Positions 17,663 to 26,572 of a stretch of 45,973 nucleotides of DNA are shown here, in pieces. The notes below the pieces were generated by a model, which saw only the letters and a program-made list of their open reading frames with translations, did not search any database and was not told where the DNA came from. The stretch is from Deltaproteobacteria bacterium (GTDB lineage Bacteria > Desulfobacterota > DSM-4660 > Desulfatiglandales > Desulfatiglandaceae): NCBI GenBank assembly GCA_016927455.1, contig JAFGMQ010000022.1, positions 1 to 45,973 on the forward strand. Direction: 5' to 3'. Each line of letters begins with the position of its first letter. The stretch's first letter is position 1. The translations under genes and the position numbers were made by a program.

Positions 17663-18382
17663 TTATGCCAGCACTATAAGTGCATCAACCGCCACCGGCT
17701 TACTTCCTGAAATTATGACGGGATTAATGTCAATTTCGCTTATTCTCTCGTTTTCAAGACCGATTTGTCCCGTGTTAATAAGGAGTTGGGCCATCAAATC
17801 CAGATCAACAGCCTCCATCCCGCGGACTGATTCCAGAATTTTGCTGCCCTTTATCTCACGCATCATTTCCATTGCATCTCTTTTCTCAAGCGGGGCTAAT
17901 CTAAACGAAATGTCCTTCAGTATTTCGGTAAAAATCCCGCCAAGGCCGAACATAACACAGGGGCCGAACTGGGCATCTCTCGTCATTCCTGCAACAAGTT
18001 CCCTTTTTCCTTTAACCATTTCCTGAACCAGAACTGCATTGCCAGATCCATTCATCCTGGAATATATATCATCAAAAGCTGCCTTGGCTTCTTCATCATC
18101 TCTGATGTCCATTCTAATCAGTCCCTTTTCTGTCTTGTGAGCTATCTCAGGTGAGCAGCCTTTCAGGACAAGCGGATAGCCTATCTTCCTGGCAGCAATT
18201 AATAAATCTTCAATATTCTCAGTCAAAATCTCATTTACAACCGGTATATGGTAGGCTGAGAGTATCTGTTTTGACTCATATTCTGAAAGTGTATTTCTTC
18301 CCTTATTCAAAGCCTTTTGGATGATTTCCATTTCATATCCCCTTGGGGCTGTTTTATACAGCTTTTTATCTTTCAATTGCAT
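17663..18382 (-). CDS. ADP-forming acyl-CoA synthetase, beta (ATP-grasp) subunit
   Basis: LSEYESKQILSAYHIPVVNE, GYPLVLKGCSPEIAHKTEKGLI, VLVQEMVKGKRELVAGMTRDAQFGPCVMFGLGGIFTEI. Start set at the internal ATG at 18382, overlapping the alpha-subunit gene. Confidence 0.9.
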   Translation of the reverse strand: MQLKDKKLYKTAPRGYEMEIIQKALNKGRNTLSEYESKQILSAYHIPVVNEILTENIEDLLIAARKIGYPLVLKGCSPEIAHKTEKGLIRMDIRDDEEAKAAFDDIYSRMNGSGNAVLVQEMVKGKRELVAGMTRDAQFGPCVMFGLGGIFTEILKDISFRLAPLEKRDAMEMMREIKGSKILESVRGMEAVDLDLMAQLLINTGQIGLENERISEIDINPVIISGSKPVAVDALIVLA

Positions 18383-19763
18383 TTTTATATCTCCACAGTG
18401 ATGCCATTGCCCTTGCTGCTCGCTCAGGCGAAGGAAAATTAACGAGCGCTCCAGAAATTTCCAGGTGTTCCATCTCCCTGTCCCATATCCCTGGTGGAGC
18501 ATATATACAGGTAACAAGGGGCTTTTTCTGTTTCCAGTTCATGAGCAGGTGGCTGATTCCATTTACCACGCCCACGTTGGCTGATGCAAACATAATAAGT
18601 ATTAGAATACCATTGACGTTCTCATCATCCATAACTGCCTTTATTATCTCCCTGCTCGCAACTGCATCGTACCAGGCAGGCCCCATATCGACAGGATTTG
18701 ACCTCAGGGCAAGCGGGGGCAGGTTTTGATTTATACGACCCTGAGTATGATTCTGAAAATCTACTATTTTTAATCCATTTGCCTCGCAGACATCGCATGC
18801 AGCCATGCCAGGACCTGCCTGTCCGGATAAAATCGCCACGCCGTTCCCTTCCAATTCAGGGCAACCAGCCAGTGCCTTGGCTGAATCCAGAAGATTCTCG
18901 GTGTCATCTATCGCAAGTATGCCTGCCTGCCTGAATGCCCCCATATATATCTCATGCCTTCCTGCCATCGACCCGGTATGGGATTTGGAAGCCTGGTCAC
19001 CTTTCTCTGAGCTTCCTGTTTTATTAATGATAACAGGCTTTTTGCCCCTATGTTTTTTAAATATCTCCATCAATCGACCCGGATTGTCTATGCCTTCCAT
19101 ATAGAGCATCAGAACTTTTGTATCAGGATCATTATCCATCAAGTATTCTACTACCTCGGCAAAATCAATATTCAGGCGGTTTCCAAGACCTATGATCTTG
19201 CTGAAACCTACATCCGTCCTCATTGCCATAAACCCGAACAAATGAGAAATCCCGCCGCTCTGACTGACAAGTGCTATTGTCCCTTTCTTCACCCTGGAAA
19301 ATTCGGGCGTAAAAGATGCATTTAAAGAAGCATGGAAGTTTATCATGCCAAAGGTGTTGGGCCCGATAACACATATCCCTGCCTTATCTGCAATCTCGCC
19401 AATTGTATTGTGAAGCTCTATTCCGGATGAATCTTCAATCTCCTTGAATCCTGCTGTAATCAGCACAACCCCCTTGACACCCGAATCCGCACATTCTCGG
19501 AATACTTCGACAAGGAGTTTTGCCGGAACAGCCACTATAACCATATCTATCTGTTTTCCGTAATCTGAGATTGAACTGTAGGTCTTTAATCCCATAGTAG
19601 TATCAGAGTAGGGATTTACAGGTATAATTTCGCCTTTGAAGCCTCCTTTGATAAGGCTGTTCATAACATGGGAGCCCAGTTTTTCAGGCTTTTCAGATGC
19701 CCCGATTACCGCTACTGATCCTGGGTTGAATAAGACGTCCATTCCGATGACATTTTCAGACAT
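18366..19763 (-). CDS. ADP-forming acyl-CoA synthetase, alpha (CoA-binding) subunit
   Basis: LFNPGSVAVIGASEKPEKLG CoA-binding domain; GPNTFGMIN; ALVSQSGGISH; SHTGSMAG. Confidence 0.92.
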   Translation of the reverse strand: MSENVIGMDVLFNPGSVAVIGASEKPEKLGSHVMNSLIKGGFKGEIIPVNPYSDTTMGLKTYSSISDYGKQIDMVIVAVPAKLLVEVFRECADSGVKGVVLITAGFKEIEDSSGIELHNTIGEIADKAGICVIGPNTFGMINFHASLNASFTPEFSRVKKGTIALVSQSGGISHLFGFMAMRTDVGFSKIIGLGNRLNIDFAEVVEYLMDNDPDTKVLMLYMEGIDNPGRLMEIFKKHRGKKPVIINKTGSSEKGDQASKSHTGSMAGRHEIYMGAFRQAGILAIDDTENLLDSAKALAGCPELEGNGVAILSGQAGPGMAACDVCEANGLKIVDFQNHTQGRINQNLPPLALRSNPVDMGPAWYDAVASREIIKAVMDDENVNGILILIMFASANVGVVNGISHLLMNWKQKKPLVTCIYAPPGIWDREMEHLEISGALVNFPSPERAARAMASLWRYKNAIER

Positions 19764-19989: not shown

Positions 19990-20802
19990 TTAATCGCCAA
20001 TTCGGATAGTATCTAAAAGCGAAAGAGAAGCGATGGCATGCCAGGTGGAATCGAGGAAGGCAGTGGCTCCATCGATACGCGCAAAGCCTCCATTTCCGGT
20101 CCTGCATGCAATTACAAAGGCCTGGCAGGCATAAGGGTTTTCAGGAGAAGCATCAAGCAGGCTGAGGGCACGCAGGCAGGTATGACAGTTTTCCACATAG
20201 GAAGTGCTGCCGGGAAGAAAGCCAAATCCTCCATCACAATTCTGGCAAGATTGAAGCCATGAGACGAAATCATTTTGTGGTGTAAATTTCAACACTCCTT
20301 GTACCATATTCATATGGTATAATATTATCCAGAGCTCGTACGCAACTCGCCATATCCATTCATTATACAGTCCATCAAATTCTGATAAATCGAGCATGTT
20401 TGCCACTCCAGGAATCTCCCTGGCAATTCTTTCGCAGTAGTAATACTCGTCAGTGTTCTGAGTTTCAGCAAGTCGCCTTTTTATAAATTTGACTGTCCTA
20501 TGGATATCAAAAGGAACCCCGGCTAACAGGCAAGAGGATAGTACCTGAAATTTCGTCCTTGCTCCTGTCCAGTCTGTCTTCTCCATGCGAAAAAGATAGT
20601 CCCTGAGGGCCTGGTCCTGGCGTAAGTCAAGGTCATCATTTATATCAATGGCTGAAAGAATACGCAGGGCATGATAGGTATCTTCCACAGTTGCCGGCAA
20701 CATAGGGGTAGCGCCATAACCGCTGCTTTCTTTTTTCCTTGCCTTAAGAAAGTCCAAGACTCGCGGTGTGAGTTTTTCTATAAGTTTACGATCTGGATTC
20801 AT
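19990..20802 (-). CDS. Prenyltransferase/squalene-oxidase-repeat (alpha/alpha toroid) protein, protein-prenyltransferase beta-like
   Basis: Repeats CQNCDGGFGFLPGSTSYVENCHTCLRALSLL and CRTGNGGFARIDGATAFLDSTWHAIASLSLLD match the GGF...PG...H/C..LR/S.LSLL prenyltransferase repeat pattern. Confidence 0.75.
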   Translation of the reverse strand: MNPDRKLIEKLTPRVLDFLKARKKESSGYGATPMLPATVEDTYHALRILSAIDINDDLDLRQDQALRDYLFRMEKTDWTGARTKFQVLSSCLLAGVPFDIHRTVKFIKRRLAETQNTDEYYYCERIAREIPGVANMLDLSEFDGLYNEWIWRVAYELWIILYHMNMVQGVLKFTPQNDFVSWLQSCQNCDGGFGFLPGSTSYVENCHTCLRALSLLDASPENPYACQAFVIACRTGNGGFARIDGATAFLDSTWHAIASLSLLDTIRIGD

Positions 20803-20917
20803 GGTATATGGAAAGTTCAGCCAGTTCCAAAGCAGATCCCAGCATAAAGATGATGGTGGATCTTGTTCAAAGGCTTAAGGTGGTCACAGGTTCTGCCGTT
20901 TGCATTAAATTTATCAT

Positions 20918-22588
20918 TTATATGCTGCCCAATTCAGATTCAATTTCCTCTAACAAAGAAAAGGCATTTTCAAGGTCTGAAAGACTGTTATCTGTTTGTG
21001 AGAGCAGATTTGCAATGGTGGTCAATTCGTCTTCCATAAATGATTTTGCCTGTTTGGATATATCTTCGATCGAGCGAAATATCGCTTCTGACCACTGTGC
21101 GGAGAGCCGGTAAAGATTTTTTTCTACTTCCCAGGGCAATAATTTCAAAAAATGACGGTTAATCAGGGGTCTGAAAATACACATTGGGATCAGGAACCAG
21201 ACAAATTCAAGATCCGTATCAAAAACATAACCAATACGGATATCGGGGGACTCGGGTCTTTCAATATGGGCATCAAATTCAGCTCCGGCGAAGGTAATAT
21301 GCAAAGCCTCTTTAATACGCTGGCTGAGCCGGTCCTGAAAAGCCCTTACAATCCGGGAAGAACTGCTCAGCGCTTCCGGCAGATATAGGGTTGCAAGCTG
21401 CTCCCCCTTTGTTGTCGATATGGCCTCCAAGTGGGATAAAAGGTCTTTTTCAATCCACTGCCTGAAATCGGCCGTGACTTTACCTATATGTCCCTTCCAG
21501 CAGGGTATCTGGGAATGGAATTCGGTCGTAATCTTTTCCAATATATCGGTATGTGATTCTTGGAATAGATTGGCTGCATCTGAGTGAAGATTGGCTCTGA
21601 GATTCTGATTCATGGTCCATATCTCGCTGCGAACAGTCGAAAGAATTCTGAACTCTTGTTGAATTTCCTCCTGTAATTGCAGGCGGGAGGTCTGTTCGGC
21701 TCCTGCCGCGGAAATAGCCAGAATTAGATATTTACTGCAGTTTTCAATGAGTGCTGACAGCTTATGGCGTATGATTTTATTGGTTTTTTCAGGTTTTACG
21801 GCGTTGAATGATTGCAGTAAACCACGTAATTTGTCCCTCATCGGTTCAAAACCAGGCTCCACGGAAAATGGCAGGATGCGGATGGGTTTTTCAAAGTGAT
21901 CCCTGGTTTGTCCATGAATGAAATTCAGCACAATGTTAAGCTCGTCCGGAGAAATTAAATCCGCTTTTGTAAGCAAAATGGTAATTTCCGTTGTAGCCTG
22001 CTGCAGCTCTTTTAAGAGACGGATGTCTTCTTCGGAAAGCGGGTGATCCGCACTTATGGCTAAAAAGGCTTCTCCAACCCTGGGCAGCCAGTCCATGGAA
22101 ATAAGGGTATTATGTTCAAAGACGCTGCCAAGACCTGGCGTGTCCACGAATATAATCTCAGGACAGAAATTAAGCTCCGGCACTTCTATATCAACCCTTT
22201 GAACTTGTTTCACATTATTTGGGTTATGCTGTTCGGCAACATAATCAGTTATGCAGTCAAAAGGAATTTCTTCTTCCCGGCCAGTCAAAAAACAAACGAC
22301 CGCACGGTCCTTGCGACCGTATTTTATCCTGGTGATAATGGCGGTAAGAGGTATTACTGCTACCGGGAGGACATTCCTGCCGATCATGCTGTTGAGAAGA
22401 GAACTTTTACCTGCCTTGAAACCGCCTAAAAGTGCCACATTGAAAATATCATCTTCAAGGAGCAACTCGCCTAAAACAGTTGTCTGCGGGACGAGAGAAT
22501 CAATACTGAATTGTTCACAAATGCCGATTATTTGTTCAAGGAAATGTCTATAATCATATTGAATTTTCTGATCCTGATCGTCTGTCAC
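20918..22588 (-). CDS. Bacterial dynamin-like GTPase
   Basis: G1 GGFKAGKSSLLN, G2 PLTAIITRI, G3 FVDTPGLGSV, G4 LLTKADLI; long helical C-terminal region; GTG start with GGAGGT RBS. Confidence 0.85.
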   Translation of the reverse strand: MTDDQDQKIQYDYRHFLEQIIGICEQFSIDSLVPQTTVLGELLLEDDIFNVALLGGFKAGKSSLLNSMIGRNVLPVAVIPLTAIITRIKYGRKDRAVVCFLTGREEEIPFDCITDYVAEQHNPNNVKQVQRVDIEVPELNFCPEIIFVDTPGLGSVFEHNTLISMDWLPRVGEAFLAISADHPLSEEDIRLLKELQQATTEITILLTKADLISPDELNIVLNFIHGQTRDHFEKPIRILPFSVEPGFEPMRDKLRGLLQSFNAVKPEKTNKIIRHKLSALIENCSKYLILAISAAGAEQTSRLQLQEEIQQEFRILSTVRSEIWTMNQNLRANLHSDAANLFQESHTDILEKITTEFHSQIPCWKGHIGKVTADFRQWIEKDLLSHLEAISTTKGEQLATLYLPEALSSSSRIVRAFQDRLSQRIKEALHITFAGAEFDAHIERPESPDIRIGYVFDTDLEFVWFLIPMCIFRPLINRHFLKLLPWEVEKNLYRLSAQWSEAIFRSIEDISKQAKSFMEDELTTIANLLSQTDNSLSDLENAFSLLEEIESELGSI

Positions 22589-22604
22589 TTAAATACCTCC
22601 AAAT

Positions 22605-22684
22605 AAAAAAACTCCCACCGGATTCTTAGCCGGCAGGAGTTATATTTACAAAAAAACTCCCGCCAGCCTTTGCTCAGCAGGAGT
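22605..22684 (-). repeat. Two tandem terminator-like hairpins (45-bp period) in the dynamin-like gene leader
   Basis: Minus strand: ACTCCTGC TG AGC AAAG GCT G GCGGGAGT TTTTTT and AACTCCTGCCGG CTAAGAAT CCGGTGGGAGTT TTTTT; each ends in a run of 7 T. Confidence 0.85.
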
Positions 22685-22934
22685 CATCAGCCCGAGAACA
22701 GGCATTTATCGAGGGACTCCATCCTCAATTTAATATCTCTAATTGCACAAAATCGAAAAAAAGACAAGAGAAATCAATGCGATTATAAAACAGAAAGCCG
22801 TGAGGGCCTTTATTTTCTGTGAAAAGACTTTACATTTATTCTTATTGCGGATTATAAGGCTTTTAAAATACTAATATGCCGAATATGGATAAATAAACTG
22901 TATTTAATGCCCTAACCTGAAAGGAGAAATATTA

Positions 22935-23930
22935 ATGTACAAAAACAAAAGGTCTTTTTTTGCTCTGCTAACTGTATCCATTCTGTTCTCTTTTGCTTTA
23001 CCTGCCCAGTCAGCAGAGAAAAAGGCTTCAGAAGAAAAAGTTGCTGCGGTTAACGGATCAGTAATTACAGTTAATGATTTTAATAGGGATTTTAATCTGG
23101 CTAAAGAACGGCTTTCGCAGATGGGAAGCTTTGTAAGCGAATCCCAGCTTCCTGAACTCAAGAAGAGAGTGCTTGATAACCTTATTGATCTCGAGGTTCT
23201 TTATCAGGAAAGTCAAAAGGCTGGAATAAAAGCTGACGAACAGGCAGTTGCCAAGCAATTCCAGTCATTTAAAAGTGGTTTTCCAGGTGATGCTGAAATA
23301 AATGAATGGTTCAAGAAGATGAATACCTCCGAGACAGACATAAAAGCGCAGATAACACGTCAGATGGCTATATACCAACTGATAGAGACTCAGGTAGTTG
23401 CAAATATCATTATATCGGATGAAGAAAGCATGGCCTACTATAACAGCCATCCGGAGATCTCAAAGCAATCTGAGCAGGTCCGCGCAAGTCACATTCTGAT
23501 CAAGATTGAGCCGGGGGCAGATGAGTCAAAAAAGGCTGAAGCCCGAAAAGAAATTGAAGAAATACAGAAAAAGGTGAAAAAAGGCGAAGATTTTGGTGCC
23601 CTCGCAAAAGAATCGTCAGCATGCCCCAGTGCTGCAAAGGAGGGCGACCTGGGCTATTTTACCAGAGGAAGGATGGTAAAGCCCTTTGAAGACGCTGTTT
23701 TTGCCTTAAAACCGGGCGAAGTGAGCGGAATTGTAGAAACACAGTTTGGCTATCATCTTATTAAATCCGTTGATAAAAAGGCAGAGATGACAATACCTTA
23801 TGAGGATGTTAAAAAAGACATTGAAACCATCCTGAAAAGGGAAAAGATTAATAAGGGAGCTGTTGTTTACATAGATAAGCTTAAGGAAAAAGCCAAAATA
23901 GAGACATTCCTTGCTGAAGACAAACTATAG
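22935..23930 (+). CDS. Exported PpiC/SurA-type peptidylprolyl isomerase
   Basis: Signal peptide MYKNKRSFFALLTVSILFSFALPAQSA; parvulin domain VRASHILIKIEPGADE...GGDLGYFTRGRMVKPFEDAVFALKPGEVSGIVETQFGYHLIK pattern. Confidence 0.93.
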   Translation: MYKNKRSFFALLTVSILFSFALPAQSAEKKASEEKVAAVNGSVITVNDFNRDFNLAKERLSQMGSFVSESQLPELKKRVLDNLIDLEVLYQESQKAGIKADEQAVAKQFQSFKSGFPGDAEINEWFKKMNTSETDIKAQITRQMAIYQLIETQVVANIIISDEESMAYYNSHPEISKQSEQVRASHILIKIEPGADESKKAEARKEIEEIQKKVKKGEDFGALAKESSACPSAAKEGDLGYFTRGRMVKPFEDAVFALKPGEVSGIVETQFGYHLIKSVDKKAEMTIPYEDVKKDIETILKREKINKGAVVYIDKLKEKAKIETFLAEDKL

Positions 23931-24490: not shown

Positions 24491-26572
24491 CTATTCTTTT
24501 TCCTGCTGGGATTCAGCAATAACCTTTTCAGCCAATTGAGCCGGGACTTCCTCATAATGGGAATGCTCCATCGTGAACGAACCGCGGCCTCCGGTCATGG
24601 AGTTGAGGTCAAGTGCATATTTCATTACCTCAGCCATCGGCACACTGGCCTTAATCACCTGATATTTTCCCTGGCTGTCCATACCAAGAACCCTTCCACG
24701 CCTGCTGTTGAGATCACCCATAACATCACCCATAACATCTTCCGGGACAGTAATCTCCATTTTCATAATCGGCTCAAGCAGGGTAGGCCTGGCCTCCTGA
24801 ATAGCCTTCTTGAGGCACATGCTTGCGGCTATCTTGAATGCCATTTCAGAAGAGTCAACTTCATGGGACTTTCCATCGAAAAAACGAACCTTCAAATCAA
24901 CAATCGGATATCCGGCAAGGGTTCCGCTTTTAAGCGCTTCATGAAGGCCCTTTTCAACTGCCGGGACAAAATTGCGTGGCACATTCATCCCTGTCAGGTC
25001 TTCAAAAAACTCAAAACCCGAGTCTTTTTCAAGAGGAAAGACGTCGAAATGGACTTCTGCAAACTGGCCCCGCCCTCCTGATTGTTTTTTATGTCTATAG
25101 ATAATCTTTTCAGCCTTCTTTGTTATGGTTTCTCTATAAGGCACCTTGACAGGCTTTAAATTTACCTCAACACCAAACTTCCTGTTGAGTTTTTCGCAGG
25201 TGGCCTCGAGATGTATCTGACCGGTGCCGGAAAGAATTACTTCCGAGGTAGTCTGATCCCTGTCAAGTCTCAGAGTAGGATCTTCCTCAAGAAGTTTGGA
25301 GATAGAACTAAAAAGCTTATCTTCACTGCCTTTGGCCTTTGCCTCAACCGCATAGGATATTACGGGAGGAAGAGCTTCAACACCCTTAAATACCACGGGT
25401 GCATTTTCTGAACACAGTGTATCTCCTGTTGCTGTTTCCTTAAGCTTAGCAATGGCAATTATATCGCCTGGACAAGCCATTTCTACCGGCTGCTGCTTTT
25501 TCCCTTCAATTATAAGCAGTTGTCCGAATTTTTCTCTGGTCTCCTTATTTGCATTATACAATGTTGAGTCCGATTCGACTGTGCCTGAAAATACCCTTAA
25601 CAGAGTAAGCTTTCCCGCAAAAGGATCGGCGATGGTTTTAAAAACCAGCCCTGAAAAAGACGTTTCAGCATCTGCCTTCAATTCAAACATTTCATCACTG
25701 CCCGGCCTTATACCCTGTTTCGGATCTCTCTCGAGAGGTGAAGGGAAACCCTGGACGATAATATCCATCAACTGAGGCGGTCCAATATTCAAAGTTGCAG
25801 AACCGCATAATATCGGAACAACTGCCCCGGATTTGACGCCGCGTATAAAAGTGTCGAATATCTCCTGGGAAGAGAGCTCTTCCCCTTCCAGATATTTTTC
25901 CATAAGTACGTCATCTACTTCAACAATGTTTTCGATAATTTTTTCACGCCATTCAGTTACAGCATCATCCATGTCAGACGGTATATCAGCAGTCTCAAAT
26001 TGTCCGCTTCCGTCCTTAGTGTAATTATATGCCTTCATATTTATCAGATCCACAAGCCCGGAGAAGGTTTCCTCAGAACCTATTGGCAGCAATACCGGAG
26101 TTATTTTTATCTCGAATGTCTTGGAGACCTCTTCAATGACCCTGTAAAAATCAGCCCTCTCCCTGTCCATTTTATTAATGAAGATCATCTTTGGAAGCTT
26201 CTGTTCCTCCGCGAAAGCCCAGACCTTTTCAGTCCCGACTTTTACGCCTGAAGTAGCATCAATGACAACAATTACACCGTCGGCTGCCTGAAGGGAAAAT
26301 TTAGTATCCGAAAGGAAGTTATCATCACCAGGGGTATCAATAATATTTATTATGTGTTTCTTCCAGGTGCAGTGGTTAAAAGAAGTGCTTATAGTTATGC
26401 CTCTCTTCACTTCCTCTGGTTCGAAGTCAAAATTGGAAGTTCCATCGTCCACTTTTCCAAATCTTGTGACACTTTTTCCCGTGAACAGCATGGCTTCTGC
26501 CAGGGAAGTTTTGCCCGAACCGCCGTGAGCAATCAGCGCCACATTTCTAAGATCTTCAGCTTTTCTTTGCAT
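24491..26572 (-). CDS. Elongation factor G-like translational GTPase (EF-G paralogue)
   Basis: G1 AHGGSGKTSLAEAML, RGITISTS, DTPGDDNF, NKMDRERADF; C-terminal EF-G domains (HKKQSGGRGQFAEVHFDVFPLE, LEPIMKMEITVPEDVMGDVMGDLNSRRG). Confidence 0.93.
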   Translation of the reverse strand: MQRKAEDLRNVALIAHGGSGKTSLAEAMLFTGKSVTRFGKVDDGTSNFDFEPEEVKRGITISTSFNHCTWKKHIINIIDTPGDDNFLSDTKFSLQAADGVIVVIDATSGVKVGTEKVWAFAEEQKLPKMIFINKMDRERADFYRVIEEVSKTFEIKITPVLLPIGSEETFSGLVDLINMKAYNYTKDGSGQFETADIPSDMDDAVTEWREKIIENIVEVDDVLMEKYLEGEELSSQEIFDTFIRGVKSGAVVPILCGSATLNIGPPQLMDIIVQGFPSPLERDPKQGIRPGSDEMFELKADAETSFSGLVFKTIADPFAGKLTLLRVFSGTVESDSTLYNANKETREKFGQLLIIEGKKQQPVEMACPGDIIAIAKLKETATGDTLCSENAPVVFKGVEALPPVISYAVEAKAKGSEDKLFSSISKLLEEDPTLRLDRDQTTSEVILSGTGQIHLEATCEKLNRKFGVEVNLKPVKVPYRETITKKAEKIIYRHKKQSGGRGQFAEVHFDVFPLEKDSGFEFFEDLTGMNVPRNFVPAVEKGLHEALKSGTLAGYPIVDLKVRFFDGKSHEVDSSEMAFKIAASMCLKKAIQEARPTLLEPIMKMEITVPEDVMGDVMGDLNSRRGRVLGMDSQGKYQVIKASVPMAEVMKYALDLNSMTGGRGSFTMEHSHYEEVPAQLAEKVIAESQQEKE

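Follow-up and report, generated by a model that had tools for sequence, protein, structure and literature searches.

The dynamin-like GTPase gene examined here is preceded by a fluoride riboswitch, and throughout the phylum Desulfobacterota this arrangement is the rule for the gene family rather than an oddity. The gene lies in a contig of 45,973 nucleotides (JAFGMQ010000022.1, hereafter the window) from a deltaproteobacterial metagenome-assembled genome (MAG), directly upstream of a gene for a prenyltransferase-type toroid protein. The two genes and their products are called DLP and PT below. The presence of the switch, its place before DLP and its conserved, predicted control of the DLP family are strongly supported by comparison of sequences. 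On balance, we favour reading the locus as a fluoride-inducible operon for membrane maintenance, composed of the switch, a DLP that would act on the membrane and an accessory PT.

Organisation of the locus and its leader RNA

The original prediction described a minus-strand open reading frame with all four GTPase motifs, a second one with prenyltransferase-type repeats 115 bp downstream on the same strand, and an acyl-CoA synthetase and a PPIase gene as flanks. These genes and flanks were all recovered (Table 1). Its further proposal, a self-contained two-gene unit, stood only in part. The DLP/PT pair does recur elsewhere, but the riboswitch and its terminators had been overlooked, and the acyl-CoA synthetase gene, which has the orientation of PT, begins 226 bp past it without a terminator being predicted in the interval. 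The full unit is the riboswitch, DLP and PT. The acyl-CoA synthetase gene was not seen as a conserved neighbour of this unit; read-through into it from the fluoride switch might occur. Scanning the coding strand of the gap between DLP and PT returned no terminator-like site, and the two genes are presumably co-transcribed.

Table 1. Features of the DLP/PT locus, in positions of the window
Feature	Position	Strand	Description
Acyl-CoA synthetase gene (CoA-binding / Succ_CoA_lig)	18366-19763	minus, as PT	downstream flank
PT gene	19990-20802	minus	prenyltransferase-type alpha/alpha-toroid protein, 270 aa
Intergenic DLP-PT gap	20803-20917	minus	115 bp, coding strand without predicted terminator
DLP gene	20918-22588	minus	dynamin-like GTPase, 556 aa, GTG start
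Shine-Dalgarno GGAGG	22596-22600	minus	serves the DLP GTG start; read from the sequence
Second intrinsic terminator, tandem	22606-22641	minus	12-bp stem and U run, -18.8 kcal/mol, z -4.4
First intrinsic terminator	22651-22684	minus	-17.1 kcal/mol, z -3.7, U run behind; overlaps the aptamer
Fluoride riboswitch aptamer (RF01734, crcB motif)	22671-22735	minus	model positions 1-64, full length
PPIC-type PPIase gene	from 22935	opposite strand, divergent from DLP	upstream flank

The aptamer was identified with the RF01734 covariance model (44.1 bits against a gathering score of 34, E 1.1e-9; 22735-22671). It sits inside the DLP-PPIase intergenic region (22588-22935), on the strand of DLP and 82 bp 5' of its start codon, and RF01734 had no second match anywhere in the genome, a MAG of about 84% completeness. 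Both strands of the aptamer pseudoknot, GGAGU (22720-22716) and ACUCC (22684-22680), are present. The ACUCC strand can alternatively pair with GGGAGU (22661-22656), which yields the first terminator. Because pseudoknot and terminator need the same ACUCC, the two structures are mutually exclusive. This arrangement of terminator and aptamer matches the classic architecture of fluoride ON switches, which Weinberg et al. 2010 (PMC2864571) set out for the crcB motif. A simple sigma-70 scan 5' of the riboswitch returned no promoter-like site.

Linkage of the riboswitch to the DLP family

The DLP family was traced with a profile through 297 genomes from the phylum, and the matches were compared with the positions of RF01734 in the same genomes. 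The riboswitch stood 46-314 bp upstream on the same strand in at least 44 of the 56 strong DLP-family matches, of which 43 were obtained by position comparison under strict filters and one (G116) was found in its locus. This count is a lower bound, owing to the strict filters and to the use of the riboswitch matches listed. Within the window's own order, the DLP genes of three further genomes (G019, G047 and G082) were also preceded by RF01734. As a control, 22 weaker matches of the profile, representing other dynamins or GTPases, were inspected, and none had a riboswitch within 1 kb. Among the 150 riboswitch matches listed, 43 lay directly before DLP and 15 before crcB, a roughly threefold difference.

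RF01734 was present in 52 of 54 genomes having DLP versus 65 of 243 without it (Fisher p 1e-22), and CrcB in 12 of 54 versus 119 of 243 (p 4e-4); these p-values from genome counts, like those given below, are descriptive and ignore shared descent, and the DLP matches span dozens of family codes. The window's genome yielded no CrcB exporter, which may reflect an assembly gap given the incompleteness of the MAG. Since CrcB was rarer in genomes with DLP and none was found in that of the window, the sequences hint that DLP is of greatest importance in genomes lacking CrcB. In the 297-genome sample, 34 of the 117 riboswitch-bearing genomes encoded neither CrcB nor DLP.

Pairing of DLP with PT

DLP was the commonest neighbour of the PT family, occurring within 4 kb at 18 of 77 PT loci. 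Seventeen of the 19 DLP copies near PT at these loci were on the same strand and 16 were upstream of it. Such adjacency is far above chance. A first collection search had returned PT homologues without DLP; pairs surfaced in searches of the order, the phylum and further classes. In the window's order, the pair was also present in G028 and G019, with PT identities of 36-39%, and the complete DLP of G019 was about 25% identical to that of the window. In G070 a contig end splits the PT gene, beside a contig end bearing DLP. The pairing occurs in two separate PT subfamilies and in many families of the phylum. Adjacency beyond close relatives, which the original prediction had put forward for checking, was therefore seen at low protein identity and was not confined to near-identical genomes.

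The majority of PT loci had no DLP, and the majority of DLP loci had no PT. Co-occurrence of the two genes among the 297 genomes was weak (p 0.017). In the trees of both proteins the pairing label changed at least 7-10 times, yet it was more clustered than shuffled labels. Having been gained or lost repeatedly, the pairing is not obligatory, and the repeated changes point to two fluoride genes that were brought together again and again, not to one inherited machine. An obligate two-component machine of DLP and PT was ruled out by the mostly unpaired loci, the weak co-occurrence and the number of label changes.

The riboswitch was found at 17 of the 18 loci with both genes, including the window; the remaining one (L028) breaks off within the DLP gene. 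It was also found at 16 of 42 scanned PT loci scored as DLP-less, two of which (L114 and L124) have a more distant DLP. Genomes with PT were enriched in RF01734 (31 of 43 versus 86 of 254 without PT, p 3e-6).

Genomic neighbourhood

According to their Pfam identities, the recurrent neighbours of PT and DLP were a Na+/H+ exchanger, Usp, enolase, CrcB, DUF190, MFS, HIT, H+-pyrophosphatase and TauE-like proteins. A formate-THF ligase, assigned by eye, also recurred. According to PMC11139923, fluoride riboswitches are reported most frequently with exporters, Na+/H+ antiporters, pyrophosphatase and enolase. Since recurrent neighbours such as enolase, the Na+/H+ antiporter and CrcB are known fluoride-riboswitch genes, we regard the neighbourhood of PT and DLP as a fluoride regulon. 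The locus resembles the known regulon of the crcB motif (RF01734) in having the aptamer before the operon, overlapped by a terminator, and the family keeps the same genomic company (enolase, Na+/H+ antiporter, UspA, pyrophosphatase and CrcB). It differs in the genes controlled, a dynamin-like GTPase and a toroid.

One class repeatedly showed the gene order DLP - enolase - AAA/STAND-like ATPase - DUF6062 - PT; to our knowledge, neither the ATPase nor DUF6062 has been linked to fluoride. The order DLP - enolase - (ATPase - DUF6062) - PT stood behind a fluoride riboswitch at L113, L117, L118, L120 and L126, with HIT, antiporter or Usp variants. At L081, L093, L094, L101 and L104, which represent several genera, PT adjoined CrcB and DUF190, and this ties PT to fluoride independently of DLP. 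Contig C47 of G026 carries a fluoride riboswitch followed by what is left of a PT gene, interrupted by three stops (25885-26448). An M-box magnesium riboswitch (L106, 6417-6595) was located near a fluoride locus of the order PT - HEAT - MFS, and a zinc-ribbon-like and HEAT-repeat protein recurrently adjoined PT (L101, L106, L134 and L138).

Features of the DLP and PT proteins

The GTPase assignment was confirmed by a match of DLP to Dynamin_N (E 8.7e-20, 71.8 bits, cut-off 27) and by the presence of all G motifs: G1 (G55-x-F57-K58-x-G60-K61-S62), G2 (T82), G3 (D149-T-P-G152) and G4 (K208-x-D210). At each of these positions, at least 90% of 41 relatives have the identical residue. The solved relatives recovered with phmmer were 5owv (C. 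jejuni DLP), 2j68 (Nostoc BDLP) and 6j72 (IniA), all significant over the GTPase domain only. DLP has Dynamin_N, the complete set of G motifs and a similar size in common with C. jejuni DLP1/2, Nostoc BDLP and mycobacterial IniA. It belongs to another subfamily, the likeness being confined to the GTPase domain, and is set apart by its fluoride riboswitch control. Residues 462-476 form a hydrophobic stretch, FVWFLIPMCIFRPLI, and the DLP of L107 has LLWFLIPMFIFRGIF in the equivalent position. By analogy with other bacterial dynamins, FVWFLIPMCIFRPLI could be a candidate membrane-contact tip. A single-sequence structure model had a pLDDT of 37, too low for placing the stalk or the tip. For DLP, an action on the membrane remains the most plausible reading.

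The prenyltransferase-type repeats of PT were likewise borne out (Prenyltrans, PF00432, E 3.1e-14) and form an alpha/alpha-toroid with the signature DGGFG..PG..S. Its best profile relatives among solved proteins were RabGGTase beta (1e-12) and FTase beta, followed by squalene-cyclase proteins (SQHop_cyclase_C, 1e-8). The toroid repeats and the signature are common to PT, the beta subunits of protein prenyltransferases (RabGGTase, FTase) and squalene-hopene cyclases; PT is shorter (270 aa versus about 330-630), has no zinc triad but charged residues of its own, and sits in fluoride loci. When counted by hand on the alignment, the zinc ligands D238, C240 and H290 of RabGGTase beta aligned with Tyr202, Glu204 and Ser252 of PT. 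These columns held Tyr/Phe, Glu204 and Ser/Ala, and no zinc triad Asp-Cys-His was seen in them across the family alignment either. PT as a zinc-dependent protein prenyltransferase was rejected on the replacement of all three ligands.

Among 32 diverse members of the PT family, D41, T42, G192 and R242 were invariant, and R22, E204 and an acid at position 251 were common. The conserved charged set comprises R22, E40-D41-T42, E204, R242 and D251. Present instead of a zinc triad, these residues suggest a charged pocket with a ligand of its own. The first repeat reads [TS]-[VI]-E-D-T-Y; the second subfamily is without the E. The predicted model of PT was all-helical and of moderate confidence (pLDDT 67), and a fold search with it gave no significant match, the best being a diterpene cyclase (weak, E 0.18).

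Proposed function and alternatives

In the absence of fluoride, the leader would fold into the intrinsic terminators and transcription would halt before DLP and PT. Fluoride bound with Mg2+ in the aptamer would stabilise a pseudoknot that captures the ACUCC needed by the first terminator, and transcription would enter both genes. DLP would most likely bind the cytoplasmic membrane via its hydrophobic tip and use GTP for remodelling or sealing. PT would be an accessory toroid whose conserved charged pocket probably holds a lipid-like or partner ligand. HF passes through membranes, brings down the cytoplasmic pH and diminishes the proton gradient, and fluoride is reported to alter membrane structure and integrity (PMC11139923). 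In view of these effects, sealing or remodelling of the membrane seems the most economical role for DLP: it would keep the barrier and the proton gradient while HF enters and acidifies the cell. DLP is probably an unrecognised part of fluoride survival in the phylum.

The main rival of this membrane-repair reading is compensation, in which DLP is itself a target of fluoride and its production is raised upon exposure, as proposed for enolase, its basic job being unrelated to fluoride. Complexes of magnesium or aluminium with fluoride mimic the gamma-phosphate, and GDP with AlF4- traps dynamin GTPases. The fluoride-inhibited enzymes enolase and pyrophosphatase also stand beside DLP in the regulon. 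Against this, the other GTPases matched by the DLP profile were without the riboswitch (0/22), and DLP was absent from 243 of the 297 genomes, whereas the riboswitch was almost always there where DLP was present. A distribution that is patchy but linked to the riboswitch is more what one would expect of a dedicated fluoride gene than of a housekeeping enzyme, and we consider compensation unlikely, at perhaps one chance in a handful. A defence or general envelope-stress dynamin with an incidental riboswitch is far less probable still. Some bacterial dynamins do function in defence, and PADLOC gave a weak LeoA match to DLP. Such matches spanned only about 25 residues of the P-loop, and a riboswitch before at least 44 of 56 family members is hard to regard as incidental. 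The LeoABC anti-phage dynamin system was ruled out, there being no whole-protein match to the Leo models (P-loop only, 22 bits).

Other alternatives concern PT. It might be an enzyme, similar to class II terpene cyclases or isoprenoid-binding, that alters an isoprenoid lipid and so lowers HF permeability, with DLP distributing or organising that lipid. The homology to toroid enzymes (RabGGTase beta and SQHop_cyclase_C) speaks for this, as does the first-repeat motif with its invariant D41 and T42, which to our eyes recalls the DxDD-T motif of squalene-hopene cyclases; the best structural match, a weak one, was also to a cyclase. PT is, however, a single toroid without the second domain that forms the cavity of class II cyclases, the fold search was not significant and the E of the motif is replaced in the second subfamily, so that we think this improbable, and more so than compensation. 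The original prediction had the toroid modify a partner or bind a lipid or isoprenoid ligand. A module in which PT would prenylate DLP or a partner has the Prenyltrans match and the adjacency of the genes in its favour. It did not survive the comparison: the zinc ligands of RabGGTase beta are replaced in PT, PT mostly occurs without DLP, and the tail of DLP (...EIESELGSI) has no C-terminal cysteine. We give prenylation hardly any credence.

Beyond the membrane-maintenance reading of the locus, a broader proposal can be made tentatively, at somewhat less than even confidence. Fluoride-riboswitch dynamins would form a dedicated family and a main arm of fluoride resistance in the phylum, active at the membrane where CrcB is often missing, and the zinc-less toroid would be an interchangeable accessory.

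Novelty and implications

A search of the open-access literature for a fluoride riboswitch with a dynamin or a prenyltransferase found none, the gene list of Baker et al. 2012 lying outside this comparison. None of the open papers naming both a riboswitch and dynamin-like proteins had a title or abstract about fluoride. The consulted parts of Weinberg 2010 (PMC2864571) and PMC11139923 do not include a dynamin-like GTPase or the toroid among the genes they name. The fluoride riboswitch and bacterial dynamins are each known; their systematic linkage is new as far as could be checked, and the list of Baker et al. (Science 335:233) may name it generically.

With this linkage, the orphan PT family gains its first physiological context. 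Bacterial dynamin-like proteins are widespread, and their triggers are mostly unknown. In the case of DLP, the sequence itself gives the predicted trigger, fluoride, which makes its function testable by one added salt and an RNA reporter. The locus suggests that, in addition to export and metabolic compensation, fluoride resistance has a membrane arm in genomes that are often without CrcB. If this is true, the remodelling of membranes by dynamins would be a new way of resisting a toxic ion.
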